DNA from: an uncultured Dysgonomonas sp.
GTDB taxonomy: Bacteria; Bacteroidota; Bacteroidia; Bacteroidales; Dysgonomonadaceae
NCBI GenBank assembly: GCA_900556485.1
Contig: USOX01000006.1
Location: 1-64,000 of the forward strand
Reading direction: 5' to 3'
Length of the DNA: 64,000 nt
A program made the translations under genes and the position numbers. Each line of letters starts with the position of its first letter. The first letter of the stretch is position 1. Below, one piece after another: positions 41,813 through 58,109 of the stretch. The notes under the pieces are model-generated. The model did not search any database, was not told the DNA's origin, and saw only the letters and a list, made by a program, of their open reading frames with translations.

Positions 41813-43087
41813 TTAAATAGTACCAAGTTCTTTTTGAACAGCTTCTAATTCTTTTGATTTGTCAATGTTTAGAAGACTTAAGTTGTAATAAACATTCTCC
41901 AACTTTTTCAATGCAGCTTTAATTTCATAATCTTCAGCATTTTTACCTTTCAATATATCGCGGTATTTTTCTAAGTATGGCAATGCTTTGTTATATAAAT
42001 CAGCTGTACCTTGATCTAATTCAGCTTGTTCTCTTCTGTTTGTTGTTTGACCAGCTTTTTCCTTCAAATCTTGAGCTTGCAATACATACAATACGCCAAT
42101 ACCTTCAAGTGATCTTTCGCAATTTGCATTTGCATTTATAGCAACTTTGTATGCTTCTTCTGCTTTTGCATAGTCTTTTTGGTCTGCAAATAATGTTCCT
42201 TTCACGCTCATCAAGTCACATGCACTTGATGGATCATTTTTGATCGCTTGATCCAGATAAGAAATAGCTTCTGCTGTTTTACCACCTCTAATAAATTCGT
42301 TAATTAAGTTAGGTGTAAAGAATTTATTTGTAGGGAATTTTTCTGCACCTTGACGTAGTATATTCACATAAGCCAAGCTATCTTCTTTTTGTTGATATTC
42401 GCTAGCTAACAATTCATAAGGGTCACTTTCCTTATAAGTAGTTTGAGGAACATATCCTTCGTCTATTATTTTGTGCAATAATTTAATAGAACGAGGGTGA
42501 TCTTTCGATTGTATTGCACTGATTACAGTATAATATTTAATTGTTTGATATGTAGTGTCTTGTAGATTAAAATCTTCGGTTCCTGCAAACATAGGAAGAG
42601 TTGGCAGTTCCCAATATCTTTCGAAGAAATCAGCAGCTTTCTTATAATCTTTTTGATCGTTATAAAATACTCCTCCATTGATATAGAATCTATGAGCTTC
42701 TTTCAATCTTTGAGCAAGGTCTTTTCTAACTTTGTTCTTAATTTTACCTTTTTCATCAGGTTGTTCTGCTAATTCATCAGCTTTAGCATATGGCTCATAC
42801 ATATTGTAAAGGCCTGTATACATTCTTGCTTCGTCACCACCTTTTCCTGTGATTTCCTTTTGCATTTCTAATGTACGTTGGTCATCGAACTCTTTATATT
42901 CGATGTCTCCGGCAACTTTCCATGTTTCAGGGTCGTTTGCTGTTTCAGGATCAGTCTGAGCTTGTTTGATAAGTCCTCTGGCTTCGTTAATATCTTTCGA
43001 TGATTTCGCTTCCTTTACTGCTTTTTTCTGAGCGAATGAGAAGCCAGCAAACATACATAATGTTGCAACTAAAAATATTCGTTTCAT
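41813..43087 (-). CDS. Exported tetratricopeptide-repeat protein in the gyrA operon
   Basis: The protein has 424 residues with a signal peptide (IFLVATLCMFAGFSFAQ). Several TPRs are visible, for example DYKKAADFFERYWELP, GKTAEAISYLDQAIKNDPSS and DYAKAEEAYKVAINANANCE. The protein is periplasmic and probably a scaffold; the partner is unknown. It starts 18 nt after the gyrA stop and is followed by a terminator, so it is transcribed with gyrA. This coupling is familiar in Bacteroides but unexplained. Confidence 0.85.
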   Translation of the reverse strand: MKRIFLVATLCMFAGFSFAQKKAVKEAKSSKDINEARGLIKQAQTDPETANDPETWKVAGDIEYKEFDDQRTLEMQKEITGKGGDEARMYTGLYNMYEPYAKADELAEQPDEKGKIKNKVRKDLAQRLKEAHRFYINGGVFYNDQKDYKKAADFFERYWELPTLPMFAGTEDFNLQDTTYQTIKYYTVISAIQSKDHPRSIKLLHKIIDEGYVPQTTYKESDPYELLASEYQQKEDSLAYVNILRQGAEKFPTNKFFTPNLINEFIRGGKTAEAISYLDQAIKNDPSSACDLMSVKGTLFADQKDYAKAEEAYKVAINANANCERSLEGIGVLYVLQAQDLKEKAGQTTNRREQAELDQGTADLYNKALPYLEKYRDILKGKNAEDYEIKAALKKLENVYYNLSLLNIDKSKELEAVQKELGTI

Positions 43088-43105
43088 AGTTCTCTATTAT
43101 TTGAA

Positions 43106-45688
43106 TTAGTTATTTTCTTCAATATTTTCACTTGTAGAATCTATAATTTCATCACTGGATTCGATTTCCTCTTCCTCTGACTCGGATATAACTTTACATA
43201 CAGAAGCTATTTCATCGCTTCGTTTTCCTAGATTAATGAGTCTGACGCCTTGTGTAGCGCGTCCCATAGTGCGAATATCTGAAACTTTTAGACGAATTGT
43301 AATACCAGACTTGTTAATAATCATTAAATCGTTATCATCTGTAACACTATTAATAGATACTAGTTTACCTGTTTTATCTGTAACATTCAGAGTTTTAACA
43401 CCTTTTCCACCTCTGCTTGTTATCCTATACACAGGAACGATTACTCCGTTTTCGTCAAAGATATCGTTTCCTTCATCGTCTTTTTCATTCAGATTAGTAC
43501 GTTTTCCGTAACCTTGTTCCGAAACAACCATTATTGTTTCAGCATTTTGTGCAGCTTTATCCAAAGCCAACATGCCAATTACTTCATCTTCGCCATCTTC
43601 ATCTATGCGCATACCTCTGACTCCTGTGGCTGTACGACCCATTTCTCTGATTTGGCTTTCATGGAAGCGTATAGCCCGCCCATTACGGTTAGCTATTAGT
43701 ATTTCACAGTCGCCATCAGTCATTAATACTTCAATCACTCTGTCGTCTTCGCGGATAGTGATTGCGTTCACACCATTCTGACGAGGGCGAGAATATGCTT
43801 CAAGACTAGTTTTCTTAATAACACCTTGTTTAGTACAGAACATTAAATAGTGACTCTTTATAAAATCTGTATCACTAAATCCTCTTACACGTACAAAGGC
43901 TGTAACCTTGTCATCAGAATCAATATTAAGAAGGTTTTGAATAGCCCTACCTTTCGAATTTTTAGTTCCTTCAGGAATATCGAATACGCGTAACCAAAAA
44001 CATCTTCCTTTCTGTGTGAAAAGGAGCATATAGTTATGCATAGATGCTGGATATATATGCTCTATGAAGTCTGCATCACGGGTTTCCGATCCTTTGGCTC
44101 CCACTCCACCACGGTTTTGAGATCTGAATTCGGATAGAGGAGTACGTTTGATATAGCCAAGGTGAGAGATTGTTATAATCATTTCATCGTTAGCATAGAA
44201 ATCCTCAGGGTTTAGTTCTTCCGATGCATATACTATTTCTGTACGACGCTGATCTCCATATTTATCTCTTACTTCTATCAATTCGTCGGTGATCACCTTC
44301 ATAAGAAGTTCTTCATTCGATAAAATCTCGTTCAGATAAGCAATTAATTTTTGTATTTCTTCATACTCATTTCTTAACTTATCTTGCTCTAGTCCTGTTA
44401 ATTGACGCAGACGCATCTCAACAATAGCACGAGCTTGGATATCTGTAAGATTAAACTTAGCTATCAAGCCTTCTATTGCTTCCTGTGGCGATTTAGAACC
44501 TCTGATAATAGCGATTACTTCGTCTATATTGTCGGATGCAATAATCAATCCTTCTAGTATATGAGCACGTTCTTCGGCTTTACGTAAGTCAAATCGAGTT
44601 CTACGGATAACAACATCTACTCTGTGTTCCACAAAGTAAGATATCATATCTCGTAAGTTCAATGTTCTTGGACGTCCTTTCACTAGGGCGATATTATTAA
44701 CACTGAAAGATGATTGTAAAGCTGTTAGCTTATATAATTTGTTTAGAACGACATTCGCATTTGCATCTCGTTTGATATCAACTACGATGCGCATTCCCTG
44801 ACGGTCTGACTCATCATTTACATTGCTGATACCCTCAAGTCTTTTTTCTCCAACTAAGTCAGCTATATGCTTGATTAATTCAGCCTTGTTAACCAGATAA
44901 GGAATCTCTGAAATTACAATTTTCTCATGGTTTCCTTCCATTTCTATTTCGGCACGTCCACGCATAACTACACGTCCACGTCCTGTCTCAAAAGCATCTT
45001 TTACACCTTGGTAGCCATAGATGAATCCACCTGATGGGAAATCTGGTGCTTTAATATGATGCATTAAACCTTCGGTGTCAATGTCTTTATTTTCAATATA
45101 TGCAATAGTTGCATTGATTACCTCCGTCATATTATGAGGAGGCATATTTGTAGCCATACCTACAGCAATACCAGAAGCACCGTTAATAAGTAGATTTGGT
45201 ATTCGTGTAGGTAAAACAGTAGGTTCTTTTAATGTGTCGTCAAAGTTTAACTGAAAATCAACAGTTTCCTTATCTATGTCTTTCAGCATTTCTTCGGCTA
45301 AACGACTGAGGCGAGCCTCTGTATAACGCATGGCGGCTGGGCTATCTCCGTCAACACTACCCATATTTCCTTGTCCATCTACAAGTAGGTAGCGCATGCT
45401 CCATTCCTGAGCCATACGAACCATTGCAAAATAAACAGATGAATCGCCGTGAGGGTGGTATTTACCTAATACCTCTCCGACAATTCTGGCTGATTTTTTA
45501 TGGGGTTTATTCGATGCATTACCTAATTCACTCATCCCGAAAAGGATTCGACGGTGAACAGGTTTAAAACCATCTCTAACATCAGGTAAGGCACGAGATA
45601 CAATCACCGACATTGAATAGTCGATATATGCCGATTTCATCTCGTCTTCGATGTTTATCTTAATAATTCTGTCCTCTGCTTCTGCCAT
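43106..45688 (-). CDS. gyrA: DNA gyrase subunit A
   Basis: This is the breakage-reunion subunit of gyrase, which introduces negative supercoils. The protein has 860 residues. The N-terminal [22 protein letters not shown] is followed by [20 protein letters not shown], the catalytic Tyr in AAMRYTEAR and the GyrA box [10 protein letters not shown]. The C-terminal domain has six beta-pinwheel repeats and an acidic tail. At the quinolone-resistance site Ser83 (E. coli numbering) is kept, while the Asp87 equivalent is Phe, as is usual in Bacteroides. Followed by the TPR gene in the same transcript. Confidence 0.98.
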
Positions 45689-45817
45689 TATTATTAATTA
45701 TATGATAAAATTTTAATATTTAATAGTTTGTAAGCTTTTTGTAAAAGGTTGTATTTTGTATACTCAAAAAGCATGCTAAGATACAAATTTTCTTCGTATT
45801 GAGGAAATATAATGACC

Positions 45818-45855
45818 TAAAAAAGCCCACTAAATCTAACTTTAGCAGGCTTTTC
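45818..45855 (-). terminator. Terminator of secA
   Basis: On the minus strand GCCTGCTAAA pairs with TTTAGTGGGC, including two G-U pairs, and a T-run follows. It ends 36 nt after the secA stop. Confidence 0.7.
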
Positions 45856-45890
45856 TATATCAATTTTGGAGTTTCTTATTTATTCTGTAA

Positions 45891-48800
45891 TTATTCTCCT
45901 TTTCCGTGGCAATTCTTATATTTTTTACCACTTCCACAGAAACAAGGATCGTTTCGTCCAGGCTTCTTATCAACCTGAATTGGAGCTGCTTTTTGGGGCT
46001 GTTGTTGTGGTGGACGTTGTCCATCTCCACCTTGTTGCTCCATGTTATTTCTTTCAGTACGGTAACGACTATAGTCTGTTTTTTGCTCAGGTGCGGCCTG
46101 ACGAACTTCTTCTGGCTCGCGTACCGGTATCTGACCACGCATTAAGATTGTAACAGATTTGCTATTCACACTATTGAGCATTGTCTTGAATAGAGTAAAT
46201 GATTCAAGCTTGTAGATTAATAGCGGATCTTTCTGTTCGTAGCTAGCGTTCTGTACCGAATGGCGCAAATCATCCATTTCGCGAAGGTGTTCTTTCCATT
46301 CTTCGTCAATTGTATGCAATACAATCGATTTTTCGAACGATTTAATCACATCTTTCGACTGAGAATCGTATGCTTCTTTCAGATTACAAGATATATTATA
46401 TATACGTTTTCCATCTGTGATAGGAATAAGTATATTCTCATACCTATCTCCTTGTTCTTCAAAAACTTGTTTGATAACAGGATTAGCTATTTCAGCCAAA
46501 CGATCCATTTTAAGCTTGAAGTTCTGAACAGCCTTTTCGTATATTTTATCAATCATAGCCTCCTGTTTCATCGAACGGAATTCTTTTTCATCAAACGGAG
46601 TTTCTATAGCTAATATACGTAGCAAATCTATTTTTAGCCCTTCATAATCAAGGCTTTCAGAATATTGTTCTACCAAATTAACGGCTGTGTCATAGAACAT
46701 GTTAACGATATCGATACCAATACGTTCACCCATAAGTGCGTGGCGACGACGTTTGTAAATAACCTCACGTTGAGAGTTCATAACATCATCATATTCCAGC
46801 AAACGTTTACGGATACCAAAGTTGTTCTCTTCTACTTTTTTCTGGGCACGTTCTACGGACTTACTAAGCATATTGTGCTCAAGCATTTCACCTTCTTTGA
46901 AGCCCATGCGGTCCATCATTCCCGCAATACGTTCAGAAGCGAACAAGCGCATCAAATCATCTTCAAGAGATATATAGAATACAGAAGAACCCGGGTCTCC
47001 CTGACGTCCTGCACGACCACGTAACTGGCGGTCAACACGACGAGATTCATGCCTTTCAGTACCAATAATAGCCAAACCTCCGGCTTCTTTCACACTAGGT
47101 GCCAATTTGATGTCGGTACCACGACCAGCCATATTAGTAGCAATAGTAACAGCTCCTGGTTGTCCGGCAAGGGCTACAACTTCAGCTTCACGTTGGTGTA
47201 ACTTCGCATTCAGTACATTGTGTTTAATCTTACGCATTGTAAGCATCTTGCTTAATAGCTCAGATATTTCAACCGAAGTAGTACCTACAAGCACAGCACG
47301 TCCTTCGCTTACAAGTTTTTCTATTTCCTGAATAACTGCCGTATATTTTTCGCGTTTAGTTTTATATATACGGTCATTCATATCTTTACGGGCAATTGCT
47401 CTGTTTGTTGGGATAACAACTACATCTAGTTTATAGATGTTCCACAATTCCCCAGCTTCCGTTTCAGCAGTACCTGTCATACCGGACAGCTTATTATACA
47501 TACGAAAGTAATTTTGTAGTGTAATAGTTGCAAATGTTTGAGTAGCAGCTTCTACTTTCACTCTTTCTTTTGCTTCTATTGCCTGGTGTAAACCATCTGA
47601 GTAACGGCGACCGTCCATAATACGTCCGGTTTGCTCGTCTACAATCATTACTTTATTGTCAATCACCACATATTCATCGTCTTTTTCGAACAATGCATAT
47701 GCTTTAAGTAATTGGTTTACTGTGTGCACACGCTCAGATTTGATCGAATAATTTTGCATCAATTCATCTTTTTTCTGAGCCTTATCGCTATCACTTACTG
47801 TAAGGTTTTCCAATTCAGATAATTGGGCACTGATGTCAGGTAACACAAAGAACTGAGGGTCATCAGAATTTCCTGTCATTAAGTCAATTCCTTTATCAGT
47901 AAGTTCTATACTGTTATTCTTTTCATCGATAACAAAGAACAATTCATCTGTAACAATATGCATATTACGCATTTGCTCAGACATATAATGTTCTTCTGTT
48001 TTTAACATAGATGCTTTGATACCAGGTTCACTTAAGAATTTAATCAACGGTTTGTTTTTTGGCAAACCTTTAAATGAACGGTATAGCAACAAACTACCTT
48101 CTTCTTGTACTTTCTTGTCTTCCGAAGCCATTTTGGATTTAGCTTCAGCCAATAATTTTGTACAAAGGTCTCTTTGCGCTTTAACTAATATTTCGACACG
48201 AGGGCGGAATTCTTCGAATAACTGTTGTTCTCCTCTCGGAACCGGTCCTGAAATAATTAAAGGTGTACGGGCGTCATCAATCAAAACCGAGTCAACCTCG
48301 TCGACAATTGCGTAATTATGTTTACGCTGTACAAGATCTGACGGATTGATCGCCATATTATCACGCAGATAATCAAAACCAAATTCGTTATTGGTTCCAA
48401 ATGTAATATCTGCCATGTATGCCTTACGACGGCCTTCCGAGTTTGGTTGGTGTTTATCTATACAGTCTACAGTTAGTCCATTAAACATATACAAAGGTCC
48501 CATCCATTCCGAGTCACGTTTTGCAAGATAATCGTTGACAGTAACTACATGTACTCCGTTTCCTGTAAGAGCGTTTAAGAATACAGGGAGTGTACCTACC
48601 AATGTTTTACCTTCCCCTGTAGCCATTTCGGCAATTTTTCCCTTATGAAGAACAACCCCTCCGAATAACTGTACATCGTAGTGGATCATATCCCAATTGA
48701 TTTCATTACCTCCGGCTAACCAATGATTCAGATAGATTGCTTTATCACCTTCTATACGAACAAAGTCTTTGGTTTCAGCTAGTTCTCTATCGAGGTCTGT

Positions 48801-49193
48801 AGCAGTAACTTCTATTTCTTCGTTTTGAGTAAGACGGCGTGCTGTATCTTTTACTATCGAAAATACTTCTGGTAACACTTTATCAAGTATTTCCTCGTAT
48901 TTATCAGTGATTTCTTTTTCAAGCCTGTCTATTTCAGCCCAAATTTCTTCACGTTTGTCAATATCAATACTTTCGATGTCTTTTTTCAGTTCAGCTATTT
49001 TATTTTTCTCTTCAGAAACATAGTCTTGAATCTGCTGTCTTATTTCTACCGTTTTGGCGCGTAGTCCGTCATGCGACAGACTTTCTATTTGTGGGTAAAC
49101 TGCCTTGATGCGGTCTACGTACGGGTTAATCTCCTTTAAGTCGCGTTGAGATTTATTCCCGAATAATGATGTTAAAAAATCAGCGAATCCCAT
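45891..49193 (-). CDS. secA: Preprotein translocase ATPase SecA
   Basis: This is the motor that drives unfolded proteins through SecYEG. At 1100 residues it is about 200 longer than E. coli SecA, because of the insertions common in Bacteroidetes. Features in order: the Walker A region [16 protein letters not shown], Walker [34 protein letters not shown] and the arginine-finger region [13 protein letters not shown] Pro/Gln-rich linker leads to the C-terminal zinc-binding tail ([14 protein letters not shown]) that binds SecB and phospholipids. The long Glu/Lys-rich segment (~70-100) is a family insertion. Confidence 0.97.
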
Positions 49194-49224
49194 ATATTTA
49201 GTTGTTTATTTTCTATTTTTTTTG

Positions 49225-49250
49225 AAAAAGTGACAAAGGTGACACTTTTT
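49225..49250 (-). repeat. Dispersed 26-bp intergenic element, copy E
   Basis: Reverse orientation, 25 of 26 positions identical to copy A. It lies in the 92-nt gap between the pseudo-phosphatase stop and secA start, 32 nt upstream of secA. No TAnnTTTG box is present in that gap, so the element may act in secA expression. Confidence 0.6.
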
Positions 49251-49285
49251 GTATACTTTTTTCTTTCTTGTTTTTTGTTACTTTT

Positions 49286-50872
49286 TTATAATAATTCCGA
49301 TAATGCCTGCTCTTTGGCCGCATTAGGAGACCGGATACGCATAATATAAGATACAGTTGGAGCTATTTCGGTAGCCTTGATTGTTCTTTTTATCTTTTGC
49401 GCTTTTATATTATGCCCAAAGAATATAACCGGACAAACAATAGCATTGCTTCTGACCTGTTTTTCTTTGAATGTGTAATCTTGTTCATTTACAATTTTGT
49501 ATCCTGGTTGGATTTCAACAAAAAGGTCTCCCGAAGTTTCTTTTGTATACCCGTTTCGGTAATATTCCATTACCGGGTTCCATTGTCCTAACTGTATCTG
49601 ATAAGAAGTATAAACTTCCTGAACACCGGAAAATTCGGATACAAACTCGGCTGCTTTTTGTTGTATTTCTGATAATGAAACGTTTTTCTTTTTAATAAGT
49701 TCTCTGTTCAGATAAATTTGTCCATTATAGAATTTATCTACCCATTTATCGTCTTTACCATATATAGCCATCAGGTACATATTGAGCAAAGCCTCACAAC
49801 GGTTTATGTGGAACTTATTGTCAGGTATATTTTGTTCTCCTTTATAGTCCGTTTCGTTTGAATTATAGTAACCTGTAGAAGTAAGGAAGATTAATGTGTT
49901 TTTTAACCCTACAGTCTTTTCTACTTCATCAAGCAGTGCTTCTATTTCACGGTCTAGGCGGGTATAAGTATCTTGTATTTCAAACGAATAATCCGACACT
50001 TTTCTATAATTTCCAGCATAGAACGTCAGTGCTAAAAAGTCGGGGCTGGTACGTTTACCTAAATCAGCTTTTGCTAAAACTTTTACAGCTGTGTTTCTAA
50101 TATTCTCGTTAACAGAGGGCGTCTGCTTAGCTTTAATGTATGTCTCTTTGTCAGTTCCCATGTCATGCGCAAACGACGTTAAGTCTTGCATGTATGGAAA
50201 TGCTTTATATTCATTTATACTAAGTAACGGTGTCCAGCGCATGCCCCAGGCACGTACAGAATAATCTGTTCCGCTTCTGTTTTCTTGATCTACAGTCCAA
50301 TAGAAATTTTTGTAATATGTAGATGAAGCCCATTTACCGGTATAATCATCAATCCAGAAAGCACTATTTCCTCTTAATCCTGCGGTGATTAGGGCTTGAC
50401 TGATATTTGGCGCAAAGGAATATATGTCAGATGAGCCTCGCGAAGCTATTTTGAGTTCATCGGCTATTGTTGATGTTTTAAGGGCTAGTGGCGATACATT
50501 ATCCTGTGTATAGTTTCCCAGATAAGCAGGATCAGAAAATGTTGTTATTTCCTGTTGTTTATCAGCTAGATATTTTTTATTTCCAACTATACCATGATAG
50601 AATGGAGCTGCTCCTGTATATATAGTAGCTATTGCTGAAGCATCATCCAGATTCGGAAAATCAAATTTAATATTCTGATATACAAGTCCTTCATTAAGTA
50701 GACGCTTAAATCCTCTTTCGGTAAATGTATTTTGGAAAAGTTCAAGATAATCGCCTCGCAACTGGTCGATAGTGATGCCGATAACTAACTTAGGCGTTTC
50801 ACGCACAGTTGTTTGTGCCTGAACCGACGATATAGTCAGTACTGCGACTAAGGAGGTTATTATTCTTATCAT
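49286..50872 (-). CDS. Alkaline-phosphatase-superfamily protein, probably catalytically inactive
   Basis: The protein has 528 residues with a signal peptide (ending SSVQAQ). It has the PafA/phosphodiesterase-like fold: PKLVIGITIDQLRGDYLELF with Asp36, then ATIYTGAAPFYHGIVGN and IQDTYTRLDREIEALLD. However, the catalytic residues are gone. The nucleophile Thr position (normally in a TAPGH-like motif) reads DDASAIAT, giving Asp77. The DHG motif after the strand IFLT reads STGYY. TDYVGH-like reads GNYRKV. The last His motif before the strand CPVIFFG reads NAIV. Only Asp36 is left. It overlaps the lnb gene by 4 nt. A structural or regulatory partner role is inferred. Confidence 0.78.
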   Translation of the reverse strand: MIRIITSLVAVLTISSVQAQTTVRETPKLVIGITIDQLRGDYLELFQNTFTERGFKRLLNEGLVYQNIKFDFPNLDDASAIATIYTGAAPFYHGIVGNKKYLADKQQEITTFSDPAYLGNYTQDNVSPLALKTSTIADELKIASRGSSDIYSFAPNISQALITAGLRGNSAFWIDDYTGKWASSTYYKNFYWTVDQENRSGTDYSVRAWGMRWTPLLSINEYKAFPYMQDLTSFAHDMGTDKETYIKAKQTPSVNENIRNTAVKVLAKADLGKRTSPDFLALTFYAGNYRKVSDYSFEIQDTYTRLDREIEALLDEVEKTVGLKNTLIFLTSTGYYNSNETDYKGEQNIPDNKFHINRCEALLNMYLMAIYGKDDKWVDKFYNGQIYLNRELIKKKNVSLSEIQQKAAEFVSEFSGVQEVYTSYQIQLGQWNPVMEYYRNGYTKETSGDLFVEIQPGYKIVNEQDYTFKEKQVRSNAIVCPVIFFGHNIKAQKIKRTIKATEIAPTVSYIMRIRSPNAAKEQALSELL

Positions 50873-52104
50873 CTTCTTGTTCTCGGTAAGCTGTATTCAG
50901 CTTTTTTCTTTAATTTTCTTTGTTGCAACAAATTCATTCCTGATCTTATCATTATAGATAAAATAAATGGAATAAATGCTATTTCTAATTGTTGTGGAAT
51001 CAAACTCCATGCCAATATAAACACCAATAGCGCCGCAAAGTTAATAAAATGATAACAATTAATTGCTTTTGAAAGTGGTTTTACAAAGAATAAAAAGGCA
51101 ACTATCAGTTGCAGAGGATTTAACCATACAATATTCCAGTTAGGATTAACGCATGGATGTTCAGAGAAAAACATCAAAAAGAAAATTATACATCCGCCTG
51201 CACCTGCCACAATAAAGAGCAGTGTATCAAAAATCTTTCCTAAAGTGAAAAGTTTCTTCTTATATACAAGGAATGATAACAGTATAGTGAGAGCTAATAG
51301 TATACAGCCTGCATATAGTGGTGATAAAGAAGAATCTTTCTGTAATGGATTAGCTACAAGTATATCATTTGTTTCCAGAAGGATATTGCGTTCTTCTCCG
51401 TTATTATCGATAACTTTGGCATTATTATATGCTGATAATAGATAAAGAGGTAGAAAATCTTTTTGTCTGTCAGTTATAACTTTATCAGCATCTGCTCCGA
51501 TAACAAGGTCTATCCCAAATTTTGACCAAGGTTGTATATCTGTACATTCCCATACCAAATCTCTATAAGTTTGTTTTTTGTCGGTTGGCGTATAAATAAC
51601 GCGTCCATCGATATATTTTTCTATAATATCTCTGGGACGGGTTGAACAGTTATCATAAAAATAGTTGTACCTGTATACTCTATTCTCAGGTAAACTATTG
51701 ATTAATAATGCATCAAATATTTTTTGTTTCTCCTGTAGCGAAAGGTTGAAAACTTGTTCTATAATTCCTACACCTCTTTCTTGATATTCTATAGTATAGT
51801 ATTTGTATGGAACTGCGGCAACGATATAATCTGTTTCTCCTTTGATAAAGCGTAACATAAAATTAGGGCTATTGAAACTGAATATTCCATAATTGAAAAC
51901 AACATCCAGATCATTTACAGGGTCATTGATCCGTATAGCTGTGTGTCCGAACAAAGCATATATGGCTCCATCCCAAGGTGTGCTGGTAAGGAGACTAACT
52001 TGTGCTGTATCGCTTAAAATTGCTTTTGGTACTTCGTATTGAGCTTTTAAGGAATGGAATATTCCCATGAAAGCGATAAGGAGGAGTATTATATATTTTC
52101 GCAT
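50869..52104 (-). CDS. lnb: Lipoprotein N-acyltransferase Lnb (DUF4105 domain)
   Basis: Lnb-type proteins N-acylate outer-membrane lipoproteins in Bacteroidota, which lack Lnt. The protein has 411 residues with a signal peptide. An exported catalytic domain (to ~260) carries FGHTAIRIND (His54) and YDNCSTRPRD (Cys153), the likely thiol-protease-like pair. Four to five transmembrane helices follow (from ~265, LYAGCILLALTILLSFLVY), then a basic C-terminus. The start of the pseudo-phosphatase gene overlaps its stop by 4 nt (ATGA), so their amounts should be linked. Other DUF4105 functions are possible, but the catalytic pair is intact. Confidence 0.85.
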   Translation of the reverse strand: MRKYIILLLIAFMGIFHSLKAQYEVPKAILSDTAQVSLLTSTPWDGAIYALFGHTAIRINDPVNDLDVVFNYGIFSFNSPNFMLRFIKGETDYIVAAVPYKYYTIEYQERGVGIIEQVFNLSLQEKQKIFDALLINSLPENRVYRYNYFYDNCSTRPRDIIEKYIDGRVIYTPTDKKQTYRDLVWECTDIQPWSKFGIDLVIGADADKVITDRQKDFLPLYLLSAYNNAKVIDNNGEERNILLETNDILVANPLQKDSSLSPLYAGCILLALTILLSFLVYKKKLFTLGKIFDTLLFIVAGAGGCIIFFLMFFSEHPCVNPNWNIVWLNPLQLIVAFLFFVKPLSKAINCYHFINFAALLVFILAWSLIPQQLEIAFIPFILSIMIRSGMNLLQQRKLKKKAEYSLPRTRR

Positions 52105-52120
52105 CAGTAATTTTTATACG

Positions 52121-52128
52121 CAAAGATA
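52121..52128 (-). promoter_or_regulatory. -7 promoter element of the lnb operon
   Basis: The minus strand reads TATCTTTG, only 16 nt before the lnb ATG, implying a very short leader. Confidence 0.55.
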
Positions 52129-52259
52129 AAATATATGTAAATATGATGTGTGCATTTACGGGAATCAATCTTACCAAATGGTGTGAATTTTACTTAAAAT
52201 CTGACTCTTTATTCCAAATATATTCAACATTAGCTATAGTTTTAATGCTTATTATTACA

Positions 52260-52267
52260 TAATTTTG
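52260..52267 (+). promoter_or_regulatory. -7 promoter element of the nitroreductase gene
   Basis: TAATTTTG matches TAnnTTTG and lies 23 nt before the ATG. Confidence 0.5.
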
Positions 52268-52290
52268 TTTTTGTCGTTAATTTAAAATAG

Positions 52291-52899
52291 ATGAAAATGA
52301 AGAAAGGATTAATTATTATTGCGTTGTTATGTGCTACATCATACATTTGGGCGCAAGATATTCAGTTACCTACACCTACAAAAACAGGCGGTAAACCATT
52401 AATGGAAGCTCTTAACGAAAGACAATCTCATCGTAGTTTTGAGAAAAAAGATTTACCGGCTCAGACTCTTTCCGATTTGCTGTGGGCGGCTAATGGATTC
52501 AACAGAGATGACAAACGCACAGTTCCTACATCACAAAATCGTCAGGAAATGGATGTGTATGTAGTGTTTAGTAGTGGTATTTATCTTTACGATGCAAAAG
52601 CTCATAAACTGACATTGAAAGAAAAAGGAGATTTCAGACAAGCTTTGGGACAGCCAAATATTTCTAATAATGCTTCTCTAACATTGGTTTATGTAGCTAA
52701 TCTGGATAAAGCATCTAATCGTGAAGCCGGATTTATTGACAGTGGTTTTATTGCACAAAACGTCTATCTTTATTGCACATCAGCAGGTTTAGGTTCTGTA
52801 GTTCGTGCTTCATTCACTCGTCCGGGATTGCATGAAGCTTTGAAATTGACAGAGAAACAAGAGATTACAATCGTTCAACCTGTAGGATATATTAAATAA
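52291..52899 (+). CDS. Exported nitroreductase-family protein (SagB-like)
   Basis: The protein has 202 residues with a signal peptide (LIIIALLCATSYIWAQ), so it is periplasmic, which is unusual for an FMN-dependent nitroreductase. Family motifs are LNERQSHRSFEKKDLPAQTLSDLLWAANG (N-terminal FMN-binding Arg/Ser region), RTVPTSQNRQEMDVYVV, IDSGFIAQNVYLYCTSAGLG and the closing IVQPVGY. It is shorter than average but complete. Bacteroides species carry similar secreted members; substrate and electron donor are unknown. It is a single gene with promoter and terminator. Confidence 0.88.
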   Translation: MKMKKGLIIIALLCATSYIWAQDIQLPTPTKTGGKPLMEALNERQSHRSFEKKDLPAQTLSDLLWAANGFNRDDKRTVPTSQNRQEMDVYVVFSSGIYLYDAKAHKLTLKEKGDFRQALGQPNISNNASLTLVYVANLDKASNREAGFIDSGFIAQNVYLYCTSAGLGSVVRASFTRPGLHEALKLTEKQEITIVQPVGYIK

Positions 52900-52920
52900 G
52901 GGAGAATCGACAAATAACTA

Positions 52921-52955
52921 AAAAATGCTGTAAGGGTTTTCTCTACAGCATTTTT
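52921..52955 (+). terminator. Terminator (bidirectional) after the nitroreductase gene
   Basis: The 12-bp stem AAAAATGCTGTA / TACAGCATTTTT has an 11-nt loop and further T residues. The converging gene ends 6 nt later. Confidence 0.85.
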
Positions 52956-52960
52956 TTATA

Positions 52961-53905
52961 TCAATTTTCTTTTCCTAATTCATTTAAAACATCAACAAAT
53001 TCGCCCGGCGGAGAGAAGACAAGTTTCTCATTTTCCATTTTGTGAGGTAGATTGGTAAATTTACCGTCGTTATACCAATATAGTCTGTCGGTAATAGAGC
53101 CGGGACCATCTTCATGCATACGCGAAGTAAGATATAGCATATTATTGAGAACTCCTATCACATCTAAGTTTCGGATAGGGTATATTATAACAGTGTGCCT
53201 GTTAGGAATAGAAACTAAAGAGCCCTGGCTACCTACTACCTGAGGATAGTTTTTGATATCAAAAGCAAAATTGGATGCAAAAAAGTGATCAGCTTCTGCA
53301 AACCAAATCATATGTTCTCCAACTTTATGCTCGGAAAGGTCTATAGGGTAATTTTTTCTTATATTTTCATTACCTAATTCAAAAAGTTCGTCAATAGTTT
53401 TGTTCCAGGGGGTTACCTGTTCAGGTTTTATATTGACAACACTTTCAGGTAAATCAAAAACTAACATAGCAATAATCCCTTCTGCAAAATCTCTTACGAT
53501 AATATTATCTCCTTCTAAATTAGCCCCATATTCCATGTTATAAAGCCTTACAGCTATATATTTCTCTATTTTTTCGAAATTAGAAACAGTTTCTTCAAAT
53601 TCCTTATTGAATTTATGGATTCTGACCATCGCATCAAAATGATCTTTTACAATCGCTTTGTAATCTTTGATATCATTTTGCTTACATATCTGAGCAATGT
53701 TATGCAGGCCTAGTTGTCCGAATCCGAAATCATTTTCGCTGACCAGTACAACTCCTTCATTTTCTATTGAATATCCAATATTCAACTTGTTAAAATACTC
53801 TTCTGTTGCCTTTATAAATATTGAATATTCTTTCGGTGTCATAAAAGTAGCCCAGTCCGGTACGCTTATTTGAGAGCCTTTCTTTTTCTTGAAAAATGAA
53901 AACAT
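52961..53905 (-). CDS. Cytoplasmic protein of unknown function, DUF1444-like
   Basis: The protein has 314 residues and no signal peptide; the basic N-terminus is FSFFKKKKG. The middle and C-terminal parts (TPWNKTIDELFELGNENIRKNY, HMIWFAEADHFFASNFAF and GSLVSIPNRHTVIIYPI) resemble the DUF1444 (YtpQ) family. There the C-terminal domain also follows an ELFELALENTR-type helix. This match is from memory and moderate. Function unknown. No clear promoter was seen. Confidence 0.6.
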   Translation of the reverse strand: MFSFFKKKKGSQISVPDWATFMTPKEYSIFIKATEEYFNKLNIGYSIENEGVVLVSENDFGFGQLGLHNIAQICKQNDIKDYKAIVKDHFDAMVRIHKFNKEFEETVSNFEKIEKYIAVRLYNMEYGANLEGDNIIVRDFAEGIIAMLVFDLPESVVNIKPEQVTPWNKTIDELFELGNENIRKNYPIDLSEHKVGEHMIWFAEADHFFASNFAFDIKNYPQVVGSQGSLVSIPNRHTVIIYPIRNLDVIGVLNNMLYLTSRMHEDGPGSITDRLYWYNDGKFTNLPHKMENEKLVFSPPGEFVDVLNELGKEN

Positions 53906-53970
53906 GATAGTAATTTTTATATTGGTATTTTTGTTAAGAGTTTAAATATAAGTAGAAATTACATTGTTTA

Positions 53971-54633
53971 TTACATTTTTTCTTCAATTTCAATTATATA
54001 TTGAATAATTTGTGAATTCATAGATTTGAGTTGGACTAATTTTTCCTCTAATTCACCAGAGGTTAATACTTGCCAATCTTTTTTATCTACCAATATGTAT
54101 GCACCATTCTGGTCTGTGCCTAAAAACTTAGTATTCCAATTATATCTTTTATTGATCTTAAGAATATCCTTTGTCAAAAGAAAGATATTAGATTCAAATT
54201 GTACTTTTATTTGTTTTTTAGTTATAATTAATCCGGCTGTTCTTTCTACTGTAATAAAAAAAGATGCTTCATCCCAGAATCCAATGGTTTTAAATCTAAT
54301 AAAATTCATTTTTGGATTCCCTTCTAGTACCAATAATTTTAAATTGAATATTTCAGAAAATTCTTCTTTGAAAGATAACTCGATATCATTTTTTTGTTTA
54401 AAATAAGTATCAAAAAAAGCCAATAAAATAAGAAGTAATCCAAATAAGTTAGCTCCAACAAATAGAGTGATGGCTAATGATATTGTATATTCCAAGCTTT
54501 CCATCTTCTCTTTTCCCAAAAACATGGGGGCGAACATTATGAAAACAGAAATAACAGACATAATTATGCCTGTTATTTTCACTGCCCAAAGTATTCTGGC
54601 TTTATTTATTTCGTAATAAAATTTGAGTTTCAT
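53971..54633 (-). CDS. Membrane protein of unknown function downstream of pyrD
   Basis: The protein has 220 residues with two transmembrane helices (~15-40 and ~50-73), followed by a cytoplasmic beta-rich domain (FWDEASFFITVERTAGLIITKKQIKVQ) that looks like a YcxB-type or PH-like sheet. The last part is helical and charged. It starts 11 nt after the pyrD stop, so it is probably in the pyrKD transcript. There is no known link to pyrimidine synthesis. Confidence 0.6.
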   Translation of the reverse strand: MKLKFYYEINKARILWAVKITGIIMSVISVFIMFAPMFLGKEKMESLEYTISLAITLFVGANLFGLLLILLAFFDTYFKQKNDIELSFKEEFSEIFNLKLLVLEGNPKMNFIRFKTIGFWDEASFFITVERTAGLIITKKQIKVQFESNIFLLTKDILKINKRYNWNTKFLGTDQNGAYILVDKKDWQVLTSGELEEKLVQLKSMNSQIIQYIIEIEEKM

Positions 54634-54644
54634 GACTCATAATT

Positions 54645-55556
54645 TTATATTTCCATTGCTCCAACCAATTCTTTCACAGAATTTATATTGTTTTTGTCCA
54701 GATATTCTTTTATACCATCCGCTACTTTTACCGAAATAGCCGGATCTACAAAATTGTGAGTGCCTATTTGTATTGCAGACGAGCCTGCAAGAATAAACTC
54801 GATAGCATCTTGCCAACAAGAAATTCCTCCCATACCAATGATTGGAATTTTTACAGCATTATATGTTTGCCATACCATGCGTAAAGCCACAGGTTTGACA
54901 CAAGGACCGGAGAGACCACCTGTAATAGTAGATAAAACAGGGCGTCTTTTATTGATATCAATTGCCATTCCCAATAACGTATTTATTAGGGAAACAGCAT
55001 CGGCACCTTCTCCTTCTACAGCTTTTGCTATTTCTGTAATGTCTGTTACATTAGGTGATAATTTTACAATCAATGTCTTGTCCCAAACTTTACGGATTGC
55101 TTTGGTTACTTCAGCTGCCGAGCCTGCACATGTACCAAAGGCCATGCCGCCTTCTTTTACATTGGGACATGAAATATTGACTTCAATTGCAGGTATTTTA
55201 TCTAAAGAAACTAATTTTTCGGTACATTCTACATAATCTTCGATAGTAGAGCCCGAAACATTAACAATAATATGTGTATCTATATCTTTTATCTCAGGAT
55301 AAATGCTTGAAACAAAGTAATCAACACCCTTATTTTGCAGTCCCACAGCGTTTAACATACCCATAGGGGTTTCAGCCATACGAGGGTAGTCATTTCCTTG
55401 TCGCTCACGAATGGTAGTTCCTTTTACAAAAACACCACCTATTCGCGACAGATCAATGAAGTCTGAATACTCCTTTCCATACCCAAAAGTACCCGATGCA
55501 GTCATTACCGGGTTCTTCAAATGTAATTTACCTATGTTTATTGCTAATTTGTCCAT
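54645..55556 (-). CDS. pyrD: Dihydroorotate dehydrogenase, class 1B catalytic subunit
   Basis: This FMN enzyme oxidises dihydroorotate to orotate using NAD+ through PyrK. The protein has 303 residues and a TIM barrel. Family motifs are [51 protein letters not shown] with the catalytic Cys131, [10 protein letters not shown], and the phosphate-binding [26 protein letters not shown]. Its first 13 nt overlap the end of pyrK, so the subunits are made together. Cytoplasmic, normal length. Confidence 0.97.
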
Positions 55557-56326
55557 GTCAACTTTTCTATATTAAATACGGGACCTTCTGTGCATACACA
55601 TATATTCCCTTCGCGCGTCTTCTCCACACAACATAAACATACGCCAAATCCGCATGCCATAACGTTTTCGAGAGATACCTCGCATGTGGTTTTAGTTACA
55701 TTTGCATATCTGGCTACAGCCATCATCATAGGCTTAGGCCCACAAGTGTAAATTGCATTAAATTGGTTGTTTTTAAGCACAGAATGTTCGGTTACATATC
55801 CTTTTTCGCCAAAACTGCCATCTTCTGTTGTACAAAAAACTTCACCGTATTTAGAAAACTCATCTAACTGAAGCAAGTCATTTTGAGATCTGGCACCTAA
55901 AAGAAATTTTGGTTTAAATCCTCTTTCTTTAAGACAGGCTCCGAGATATAACATAGGAGCTGTGCCAACACCACCTCCAATTAGAAGTAATTCCTGCTTA
56001 TTATTTCCGGTAGGAATAGAAAAGGAGTTACCTAATGGGAGTATCAGGTTTACAATTTCTCCCTTTTGCGAATCACACATTCGTTTTGTTCCATCGCCCA
56101 CCATCTGAATTAATAACCACAATTCATTTGTTCCCTTATCAACAAAATTGACAGAAATAGGACGTCGCAAATAAGTCGATTGTGACCCATCAACTCTTAC
56201 TTCAACAAATTGTCCGGGTAACATTTCCGGTAGTGGGGAATTGTCTGTGGTAGTTAATTTAAGAAGGCAATAAGCTTGGTTTAGTCGGTTGTTTTCGGTA
56301 ACAACTAAATCCAGGATTTTTTTCAT
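55544..56326 (-). CDS. pyrK: Dihydroorotate dehydrogenase electron transfer subunit
   Basis: This FAD and [2Fe-2S] protein passes electrons from PyrD FMN to NAD+. The protein has 260 residues. The FAD-binding RRPISVNF is followed by [20 protein letters not shown] (NAD-binding Gly-rich loop) and the C-terminal iron-sulfur cluster cysteines in [21 protein letters not shown]. The 13-nt overlap with pyrD and a -7 box 38 nt upstream of the start show that this is the first gene of the operon. Confidence 0.96.
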
Positions 56327-56363
56327 TAACCTTTTATTTTTTAGTAGATAATTTTTTCAAGTG

Positions 56364-56371
56364 CAAAGTTA
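56364..56371 (-). promoter_or_regulatory. -7 promoter element of pyrK-pyrD
   Basis: The minus strand reads TAACTTTG. A typical -33 box is not obvious. Confidence 0.5.
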
Positions 56372-56534
56372 AGGAATAAATAAGTGAAAATTGAATATAG
56401 AAAAGTGAAAAAATGATTTATATTTTATATATTAGTAGATCTAAATAAAAAGTGTTTAAAAATATATCATATTTTTTTTCATTATTGAGAAAAAACACTA
56501 TTTTTACAGCATTAATTTACGTGGTGAACTTACA

Positions 56535-56630
56535 ATGCATTATATTTTAAAAAATATTCCTACTTTTTCTCCTTTCCTTAATATTAAGGATAGGGATCAT
56601 TTTTTTATAAAACTATCTAATCTTGTATAA
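56535..56630 (+). CDS. Possible 31-aa leader peptide upstream of tnaA
   Basis: An ATG-initiated small ORF, MHYILKNIPTFSPFLNIKDR plus 11 more residues, lies 102 nt before the tnaA start. It is about the size of E. coli TnaC and has an NIxxxDH-like stretch, but it lacks the Trp residue required for TnaC-type tryptophan sensing. Inside it lies the inverted repeat at 56571-56594. It may be a real regulatory ORF or chance; no Shine-Dalgarno is present. Confidence 0.3.
   Translation: MHYILKNIPTFSPFLNIKDRDHFFIKLSNLV
56571..56594. promoter_or_regulatory. 24-bp near-perfect inverted repeat upstream of tnaA
   Basis: The central 16 bp TCCTTAATATTAAGGA is a perfect palindrome. It extends to 24 bp (CCTT... 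to ...TAGG) with one mismatched pair. It lies 138 nt before the tnaA ATG and would suit a dimeric transcription factor or an RNA hairpin. The rest of the 406-bp gap (56327-56732) shows nothing else recognised. Confidence 0.45.
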
Positions 56631-56732
56631 CTAGAAATCATTTTCTTTTTTTTATCTTAATCACAATTTATAGTATACTTTATTTTGAGTAGCTATACTT
56701 ATTTCTATTTACATAATAAATAGTTTTATATT

Positions 56733-58109
56733 ATGGAATTACCTTTCGCCGAATCTTGGAAAATCAAGATGGTTGAGCCTATACGCAAAAGTACACGTAA
56801 AGAACGCGAACAATGGCTTGAAGAAGCTAAATATAATATGTTTCAATTGAAAGCAGAACATGTATATATCGACTTAATTACCGATTCGGGTACAGGAGCA
56901 ATGAGTGATCGTCAGTGGGCTTCGATGATGCTCGGCGACGAAAGCTATGCCGGAGCTTCATCTTTTTATAATATGAAAGAGGCTGTTACCCGTATTACTG
57001 GTTTCGAATATGTTTTGCCTACCCATCAGGGACGTGCTGCAGAGAATGTTTTATTTTCTTGTTTAATAAAAGAAGGGGATGTTTGTCCGGGTAACTCTCA
57101 TTTCGATACAACAAAAGGTCATATAGAGTCACGTAAAGCTATAGCTTTAGATTGTACAATAGACGAAGCAAAAGATACCCAATTGGAAATTCCATTCAAA
57201 GGAAATGTCGATATCAAAAAATTGGAGAAGGTATTAAACGAATATGGAGATCGTATCCCTTTTATTATAATTACTATAACTAATAATACATCGGGAGGAC
57301 AACCGGTATCTATGCAAAATTTACGCGAAGCGCACGAATTGGCTAAGAAATATAACAAACCTGTGCTTTTAGATTCTGCTCGTTTTGCCGAAAATGCATA
57401 TTTTATTAAGACCCGGGAAAACGGGTATGAAAATAAAACTATAAAAGAAATTTGCCTGGAAATGTTTTCGTATGCAGATGGTATGACTATGAGTGCAAAA
57501 AAAGATGCCATAGTAAATATGGGAGGATTTTTTGCTACTAATTTGAAAGAATGGTATGATGCAGCGAAAGTGAAGGGGATAGTTTATGAAGGCTTCCTTA
57601 CATACGGAGGTATGAATGGACGCGATATGAATACTCTGGCTATAGGTTTGGATGAAAATACTGAATTTGAAAATTTAGAGAGTCGTATAAAACAGGTTGA
57701 ATATCTGGGAAAGAAACTAGATGAATACGGAATTCCTTATCAGCGTCCGGCAGGAGGGCATGCAATATTTGTTGATGCCAGCAAAATATTGACAAATGTA
57801 CCTAAAGAGCAGTTTCCTGCGCAGACACTTGCTGTAGAGTTATTTTTGGAGGCTGGTATCAGAGGCTGTGAGATTGGATATCTATTAGCCGACCGTGATC
57901 CTGTGACAAGAGAGAATCGCTATGATGGTTTAGATCTATTGCGTTTAGCTATTCCTCGACGTGTGTATACTGACAATCATATGAATGTTGTGGCTGTAGC
58001 CCTAAAAAATATATTTGATAGAAGAGAATCTATCGCTAAAGGACTAAAAATCACTTGGGAGGCCGATTTATTACGGCACTTCACAGTGGAATTGGAAAAT
58101 ATGGGTTGA
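56733..58109 (+). CDS. tnaA: Tryptophanase (tryptophan indole-lyase)
   Basis: This PLP enzyme splits tryptophan into indole, pyruvate and ammonium. The protein has 458 residues. Characteristic stretches are LPFAESWKIKMVEPI at the start, LLTDSG-type YIDLITDSGTGAMSDRQW, GRAAENVLFS, the cofactor-binding LLDSARFAENAYF and the PLP-lysine site MTMSAKKDAIVNMGGFF (Lys256-Lys257). The same fold is used by tyrosine phenol-lyase, but the site here reads like Bacteroides TnaA. It starts after a long untranslated region with a possible leader and inverted repeat, and is followed by two hairpins. It would make the organism indole-positive. Confidence 0.95.
   Translation: MELPFAESWKIKMVEPIRKSTRKEREQWLEEAKYNMFQLKAEHVYIDLITDSGTGAMSDRQWASMMLGDESYAGASSFYNMKEAVTRITGFEYVLPTHQGRAAENVLFSCLIKEGDVCPGNSHFDTTKGHIESRKAIALDCTIDEAKDTQLEIPFKGNVDIKKLEKVLNEYGDRIPFIIITITNNTSGGQPVSMQNLREAHELAKKYNKPVLLDSARFAENAYFIKTRENGYENKTIKEICLEMFSYADGMTMSAKKDAIVNMGGFFATNLKEWYDAAKVKGIVYEGFLTYGGMNGRDMNTLAIGLDENTEFENLESRIKQVEYLGKKLDEYGIPYQRPAGGHAIFVDASKILTNVPKEQFPAQTLAVELFLEAGIRGCEIGYLLADRDPVTRENRYDGLDLLRLAIPRRVYTDNHMNVVAVALKNIFDRRESIAKGLKITWEADLLRHFTVELENMG

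Follow-up and report, generated by a model that had tools for sequence, protein, structure and literature searches.

The 64,000-nucleotide (nt) stretch of DNA analyzed here, called the window below, belongs to contig USOX01000006.1 (assembly GCA_900556485.1) of an uncultured Dysgonomonas sp., order Bacteroidales. On its minus strand, lnb, a gene of the lipoprotein N-acyltransferase family, is directly followed by a gene that we name pse, whose product is related to the phosphatase PafA. Read from the sequences, Pse has the PafA fold, its phosphatase site is lost, it is under purifying selection, its gene stands directly after lnb in one clade, and it is found fused to Lnb in two places of the trees. 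We propose, with moderate confidence, that the pair encodes Lnb together with a non-catalytic periplasmic subunit for Lnb.

Loss of the PafA active site in a maintained protein

49286-50872, minus strand: pse, 528 amino acids (aa), catalytically dead PafA-like protein
50813-50872, minus strand: putative export segment at the Pse N-terminus, hydrophobic, residues 1-20 with VQAQ at its end (hydropathy and sequence)
50642-50644, minus strand: codon of Asp77, in the place of the PafA nucleophile Thr79 (PafA alignment)
49997-50011, minus strand: codons of Asn288 to Val292, in the place of the ligands Asp305 and His309 (PafA alignment)
49871-49876, minus strand: codons of Thr333-Gly334, in the place of the ligands Asp352-His353 (PafA alignment and orthologues)

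Pse matches PF01663 in Pfam (E 2.6e-24), and its nearest solved structure by sequence is that of PafA (5tj3, E 5.4e-47, residues 18-527). Its score with the NCBIfam PafA equivalog NF042991 is 298.8 bits, under the cut-off of 650. The metal ligands of PafA are, as we take the numbering, D38, D305, H309, D352, H353 and H486, and T79, N100, K162 and R164 are the active-site mutations in the title of PafA structure 5too. Once aligned with 5tj3, Pse shows D77 in place of T79, asparagine and serine in place of K162 and R164, N288 for D305, V292 for H309 and T333-G334 for the D352-H353 pair, and it retains D38 (as D36) and N100.

These losses are common to 82 orthologues, from 80 named loci and from L081 and L082, and an artefact of one genome is thereby ruled out. 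Thr79 is found in none of them, its place being taken by K (24), D (19), R (17), E (10), Q (6), A (3), L (2) or S (1); His309 is likewise missing from all 82, and Asp305 from 81 (N in 75, D in 1). The D352 position holds T in 72/82 and S in 10/82, the H353 position G in 82/82, and Asp38 is present throughout. The position of H486 is poorly alignable (E in the nearest orthologue, L001; H in 9/82), and its replacement is less certain. As a control, eight distant homologues (P0204-P0211) placed in the same alignment keep all ten residues except for one E in place of D305. A sequence-only reading of this DNA had described the nucleophile as changed to Asp, the Asp-His pair to Thr-Gly, and the TDxxGH-like motif and the last His as lost, with fold-marking residues conserved, and had proposed orthologues as a check; the observation is confirmed, and the losses are shared by the orthologues, save that the last His is the less certain H486. 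Metal ligands, which might have been kept at alternative positions, were looked for at the PafA positions only, and there they are lost.

The ratio of non-synonymous to synonymous substitution rates (dN/dS) of pse lies between 0.02 and 0.10 in ten close pairs, which rules out a decaying pseudogene, and it is lower than that of lnb in 10/10 closest locus pairs, some of which share members. Identity to the nearest locus, L001, is 86% for Pse and 66% for Lnb. Because the dN/dS is low and the catalytic residues are lost, we consider Pse, on these alignments, to be a maintained pseudoenzyme whose gene is kept without catalysis.

Pairing and fusion of pse with lnb

50869-52104, minus strand: lnb, 411 aa; signal or anchor segment, periplasmic Lnb_N domain (His54, Cys153) and membrane helices at the C-terminus
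50869-50872, minus strand: ATGA, 4-nt overlap of the lnb stop with the pse start
45891-49193, minus strand: secA, conserved downstream neighbour (31/32 lnb-pse loci of the order, 80/80 close loci)

The lnb product matches both Lnb domains of Pfam, PF25221 (5TMH_Lnb; E 1.9e-45, 154.9 bits against a cut-off of 25.2) and PF13387 (Lnb_N; E 1.3e-24, 87.1 bits against 22.2). His54 and Cys153 are unchanged in 20/20 aligned Lnb proteins, the first row being the window protein. With the NCBIfam equivalog NF051878 the protein scores 396.9 bits, and since the cut-off of 550 is not reached we call it an Lnb-family protein whose equivalog status is unproven; the Lnb of locus L249 scores 593.5 bits, above this cut-off. 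Lnb was reported as the lipoprotein N-acyltransferase of Bacteroides by Armbruster et al. in 2024, according to passages of three citing papers (PMC12994826, PMC13103446, PMC11694511). The first of these describes a catalytic His and Cys in the Lnb/DUF4105 family, places the family with permuted NlpC/P60-type enzymes and reports repeated displacement of DUF4105 by Lnt, in three genomic contexts; its main-text passages mention neither alkaline phosphatase nor SecA. Lnt and Lnb are distinct in sequence and in predicted structure (passages of PMC13103446).

From 389 loci encoding a relative in named genomes we kept 80, the close loci, whose record titles include Dysgonomonas, Seramator, Proteiniphilum, Petrimonas, Fermentimonas, Massilibacteroides and Parabacteroides. 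There, lnb lies directly upstream of pse in 79/80 and secA downstream in all; in the exception, L076, the pse match starts at base 12 of the DNA examined. We also searched a sample of 198 genomes of the order, in which Lnb occurs in 95 (97 by a full-length profile, the two extra being short pieces). Its 98 Lnb loci were taken from 99 rows, G268:C65, a row with stops, being left out. In 32/98, pse adjoins lnb in the same orientation; secA comes after the pair in 31 of these, and in 12 the two genes overlap by 4 nt, as computed from the longest frames. Across the phylum, 71 of 247 sampled genomes have the Lnb membrane domain, and pse stands beside Lnb at 3/72 Lnb loci, in three genomes that recur in the order search; loci L081-L110 of this sample cover about 1.5 kb per side.

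One locus of the order sample (1/98; L153, genome G286) carries Lnb and Pse as a single frame of 924 aa, in which Lnb spans residues 1-379, the Pse domain 409-913 and a hydrophobic segment 393-415, with no secA within the 10 kb examined. A search with this fusion returned 92 proteins. Among them, 73 protein clusters, 820-947 aa long, are fusions with both Lnb Pfam domains and a match to the Pse profile, 61 of them also with a precomputed PF01663 match. Their source names include Paludibacteraceae, Bacteroidaceae and Bacteroides sp. The Lnb Cys never varies over 72 aligned fusions (P0123 left out), and at least 90% of them have the His. By a simple threshold, a hydrophobic stretch precedes the Pse domain in 66/73, although in some rows it is the last Lnb helix. 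Asp38 is replaced by N in 16/73 fusions and by E in 7/73, and the 352-353 pair is mostly K-P; the residue lists used to compare fused and separate forms show the eight commonest letters, and the 54 separate rows include the fusion L153.

In the tree of Pse (24/73 fusions plus L153), the fusions form two groups, one deep and one sister to L249/L250, both with starred support. The tree of Lnb (18/73 fusions plus L153; L245 and L247 left out for low scores) recovers both groups, with L249/L250 once more joining the second (support 94), and in it one clade of 62 rows holds all linked and fused Lnb together with 9 rows without pse and 2 with pse elsewhere. Both trees are quick searches with long-branch warnings. 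A single fusion clade in the Pse tree, a group named after the tree had been seen, is rejected (p-AU 0.0011), which speaks against one ancient fusion; one fusion with later splits is another reading. The presence of Lnb-Pse fusions in two places of both trees favours a functional partnership.

The AlphaFold model of Pse has a predicted local distance difference test (pLDDT) score of 81.4 and a predicted template modelling score (pTM) of 0.71, and its best fold match is PafA (E 2.7e-38), but at 11.3 Å across the whole length. For the fusion P0121, modelled with 72 sequences, the values are 91.0 and 0.63; its phosphatase part superimposes on PafA with a TM-score of 0.85-0.86 by target length (3.3-3.8 Å), and its linker (residues 398-407) has low confidence. 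The domains of the modelled fusion are thus sure and their mutual placement is not.

Two candidate signals flank the pair.

52121-52128, minus strand: TATCTTTG, -7-box-like, upstream of lnb, candidate promoter of the pair (sequence)
49225-49250, minus strand: hairpin AAAAAGUG/CACUUUUU between pse and secA (-7.4 kcal/mol, z -3.44)

The box TATCTTTG, 17 bases upstream of the lnb start, resembles TAnnTTTG, presumably the -7 consensus of Bacteroidota promoters, and could possibly serve the lnb-pse pair. The hairpin, in the 92-nt gap between pse and secA, is a possible terminator; it is absent from the list of a terminator scan whose rule demands G+C-rich stems. A sigma-70-type promoter scan found 15 candidates against 15.1 expected, and no Rfam match was obtained over 43000-57000. 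Divergent from lnb lies a nitroreductase-family gene with a signal-like start (52291-52899, plus strand); such a gene also adjoins lnb at many loci of Dysgonomonas. Among named relatives, the closest are Dysgonomonas, plus some metagenome-assembled genomes labelled Prevotella, which makes Dysgonomonas or a near relative the probable source of the window. In locus L131, a frame that reads as a dapF-like candidate lies two genes before lnb, and the Lnb-type protein P0203 (674 aa) also carries PF01678, which we take to be diaminopimelate epimerase; it is perhaps another Lnb fusion.

Proposed role of the pair and competing explanations

Since Lnb groups with permuted NlpC/P60-type enzymes with a conserved His and Cys, we infer that it would move an acyl chain from a phospholipid onto its own Cys and then to the amino group of diacylated lipoproteins. 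Pse, whose N-terminal hydrophobic segment looks like a signal peptide, would be exported and act next to the Lnb_N domain, on the periplasmic side of the inner membrane. Its former phosphatase pocket, or a nearby surface, would most likely hold a substrate, be it the phospholipid headgroup or the incoming lipoprotein, or else steady or gate Lnb. Its ancestor being a phosphomonoesterase, Pse may bind a phosphate-bearing headgroup and leave it uncut. In the fusions, the old signal segment, if left uncut, would form an extra membrane helix holding the domain in the periplasm. The partnership between Lnb and Pse appears quite likely to us; a binding role for Pse is a tentative guess, guided by its ancestry. 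As for the fuller proposal, that one Bacteroidales clade possesses a two-part N-acylation enzyme in which Lnb works with a dead-phosphatase docking or gating subunit, twice fused into one chain, we would give it even chances. The Pse subunit is accessory, because many Lnb proteins are without such a neighbour.

Several observations weigh against this proposal. In the DNA examined, no pse was found at 69/72 Lnb loci of the phylum (27 with only about 1.5 kb on each side) and no linked pse at 65/98 loci of the order, among which L184, L190, L200, L219 and L222 had less than 0.8 kb after lnb and L162 and L166 are from genomes with pse elsewhere. At loci L181 and L194, lnb stands immediately ahead of secA and pse is missing, and a profile search gave no match to the Pse family in their genomes (G309 and G400); we read them as natural losses of pse with Lnb kept, which argues against a strict need of Lnb for Pse. 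Conversely, the pse genes of L251 and L252 belong to the linked clade and lie away from lnb, beside a candidate topA-like gene, with L252 also by secA. Concerning the fusions, overlapping genes fuse easily, an A-x-A-like cut motif is present in 30/73 by a loose rule and the chain may be cut again, and P0181, P0189 and P0192, which have no Lnb domains, fall inside the first fusion group of the Pse tree, where they would be fissions or fragments. A fixed interface between Lnb and Pse was not obtained by AlphaFold either, domain placement being open at that pTM. The gene pair singled out by the sequence-only reading, with its real 4-nt overlap, is conserved among the close loci and in a part of the order and absent from most other Lnb loci examined. 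That reading had gone on to a two-component lipoprotein maturation system, which is supported by the conserved losses, the pair and the fusions but not as an obligatory system, given the many Lnb loci without pse, L181 and L194 included.

Pse-profile matches occur in 121/198 genomes of the order, of which 35 have a linked, fused or secA/topA-type pse and the remaining 86 a lower-scoring match elsewhere. Lnb is present in all 35; since 33 of them had been located by way of Lnb, only G377 and G275 test the co-occurrence. Over the whole sample, 84 genomes have both families, 37 the Pse family only, 11 Lnb only and 66 neither (Fisher p 7e-15, a value that ignores kinship); 37/121 genomes with the Pse family thus have no recognised Lnb, and 11/95 Lnb genomes no match to the Pse family. 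Residues of the unlinked relatives were read in 17 of the 86 genomes: all 17 are without H309, and six keep both D352 and H353. In the Pse tree these relatives are placed stepwise from active PafA towards the linked clade, several supports being under 95. As the linked clade has partly degenerate proteins without linkage branching below it, the decay of the active site, as the sequences tell it, began before the linkage to lnb, and the linkage is set aside as the cause of the loss. An intact PafA with all ten residues, L270 (G251), is a second match in a genome that also holds an lnb-pse pair. Within four genes of 20 unlinked loci we found YchF-type (7), PcrB-type (6), phosphopantetheinyl-transferase-type (5) and GldD-type (5) genes.

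One may wonder whether Pse has its own envelope function, unrelated to acylation, with lnb as a neighbour through an old secA block and the fusions arising by chance from overlapping genes. The loci L251 and L252, the distant, partly degenerate relatives in another neighbourhood with no lnb in the DNA examined, the decay that predates the linkage and the frequency of Lnb without Pse all suit this explanation. It accounts poorly for fusions to Lnb in two places of both trees, over 73 clusters, and for L153, which is fused with no secA nearby, and we hold it to be unlikely. Another hypothesis makes the link with secA the primary one, Pse acting in the Sec pathway or in the first handling of lipoproteins, such as their passage from SecA-dependent export to Lnb. 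Indeed, secA follows pse in all close loci, in 31/32 of the order's lnb-pse loci and in L252, whose pse is away from lnb, and a survey of papain-like proteins suggested from gene context, in the passage concerned, that DUF4105 might support a "translocation process" (PMC10318531). On the other hand, the candidate terminator separates pse from secA in the window, SecA is cytoplasmic and Pse predicted to be periplasmic, and no fusion to SecA was seen, though no search aimed at one; we regard this hypothesis as improbable. Finally, Pse could still be an enzyme acting on lipids or lipoproteins, with an active site rebuilt from the retained Asp38 and new ligands. In the linked orthologues, Asp38, Gly334 and a Thr or Ser at position 333 are indeed kept in 82/82. 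However, the nucleophile position takes eight different residues across these orthologues, the fusions replace Asp38 in part and mostly have K-P at 352-353, and no ligand set is common to linked and fused forms at the PafA positions, the only ones searched, so that we find a surviving enzyme highly improbable.

Novelty and relation to known systems

Lnb and PafA were already known; the natural single-chain fusions of Lnb and Pse are new here. Within titles, abstract starts and passages of the literature searched, we found no description of Pse or of a pairing or fusion of Lnb with a PafA-like protein, in line with the earlier suggestion that the arrangement is undescribed; the original Lnb paper and its supplements lie outside this scope. 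In PMC11992087, "LNB" designates a sugar and is irrelevant to Lnb. In gut Bacteroidota, much of the machinery at the cell surface is carried by lipoproteins, and the identification of Lnb dates back only to 2024. If our proposal is true, a dedicated pseudoenzyme subunit adds a layer to lipoprotein maturation, and Pse would clearly exemplify the conversion of a phosphatase into a non-catalytic module.

A warning for annotation also follows, as proteins of the Pse type, although dead, carry the source name "alkaline phosphatase family protein". Besides the linked forms, L253-L269 and L271-L290 make up a wider set of partly degenerate PafA-like Bacteroidales proteins unlinked to lnb, some of them near CNNM/CorC-type genes. 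Two of these, L253 (G415; 660.8 bits) and L255 (G330:C93, in genome G330; 653.6 bits), pass the PafA equivalog cut-off with most catalytic residues missing, so that the NCBIfam PafA name is no guarantee of a phosphatase. Gut-related PafA sequences have been reported, in a passage of PMC8812569, to cluster with Bacteroidales, and some members of that set may be pseudoenzymes.

With the Lnb of Bacteroides, the window protein shares both Lnb Pfam domains and the conserved His and Cys, and it differs by its NF051878 score (396.9 against 550); the passages of the three citing papers do not mention a Pse neighbour or the fusions. Lnt, the apolipoprotein N-acyltransferase, performs the same overall reaction as Lnb, and we know of no phosphatase-fold partner for it. 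PafA (5tj3, 5too) has the same fold and origin as Pse. Unlike PafA, Pse is without the catalytic Thr and five of the six metal ligands (H486 being less certain), scores 298.8 bits against 650, and is encoded with Lnb or fused to it. A parallel can be drawn with PbgA/YejM, an inner-membrane protein of Escherichia coli whose hydrolase-fold periplasmic domain senses lipid without cutting it. In both cases, a fold of the alkaline-phosphatase superfamily would be reused non-catalytically at the periplasmic face of the membrane; the likeness is an analogy only, PbgA/YejM belonging to another family and to another pathway, the control of lipopolysaccharide.

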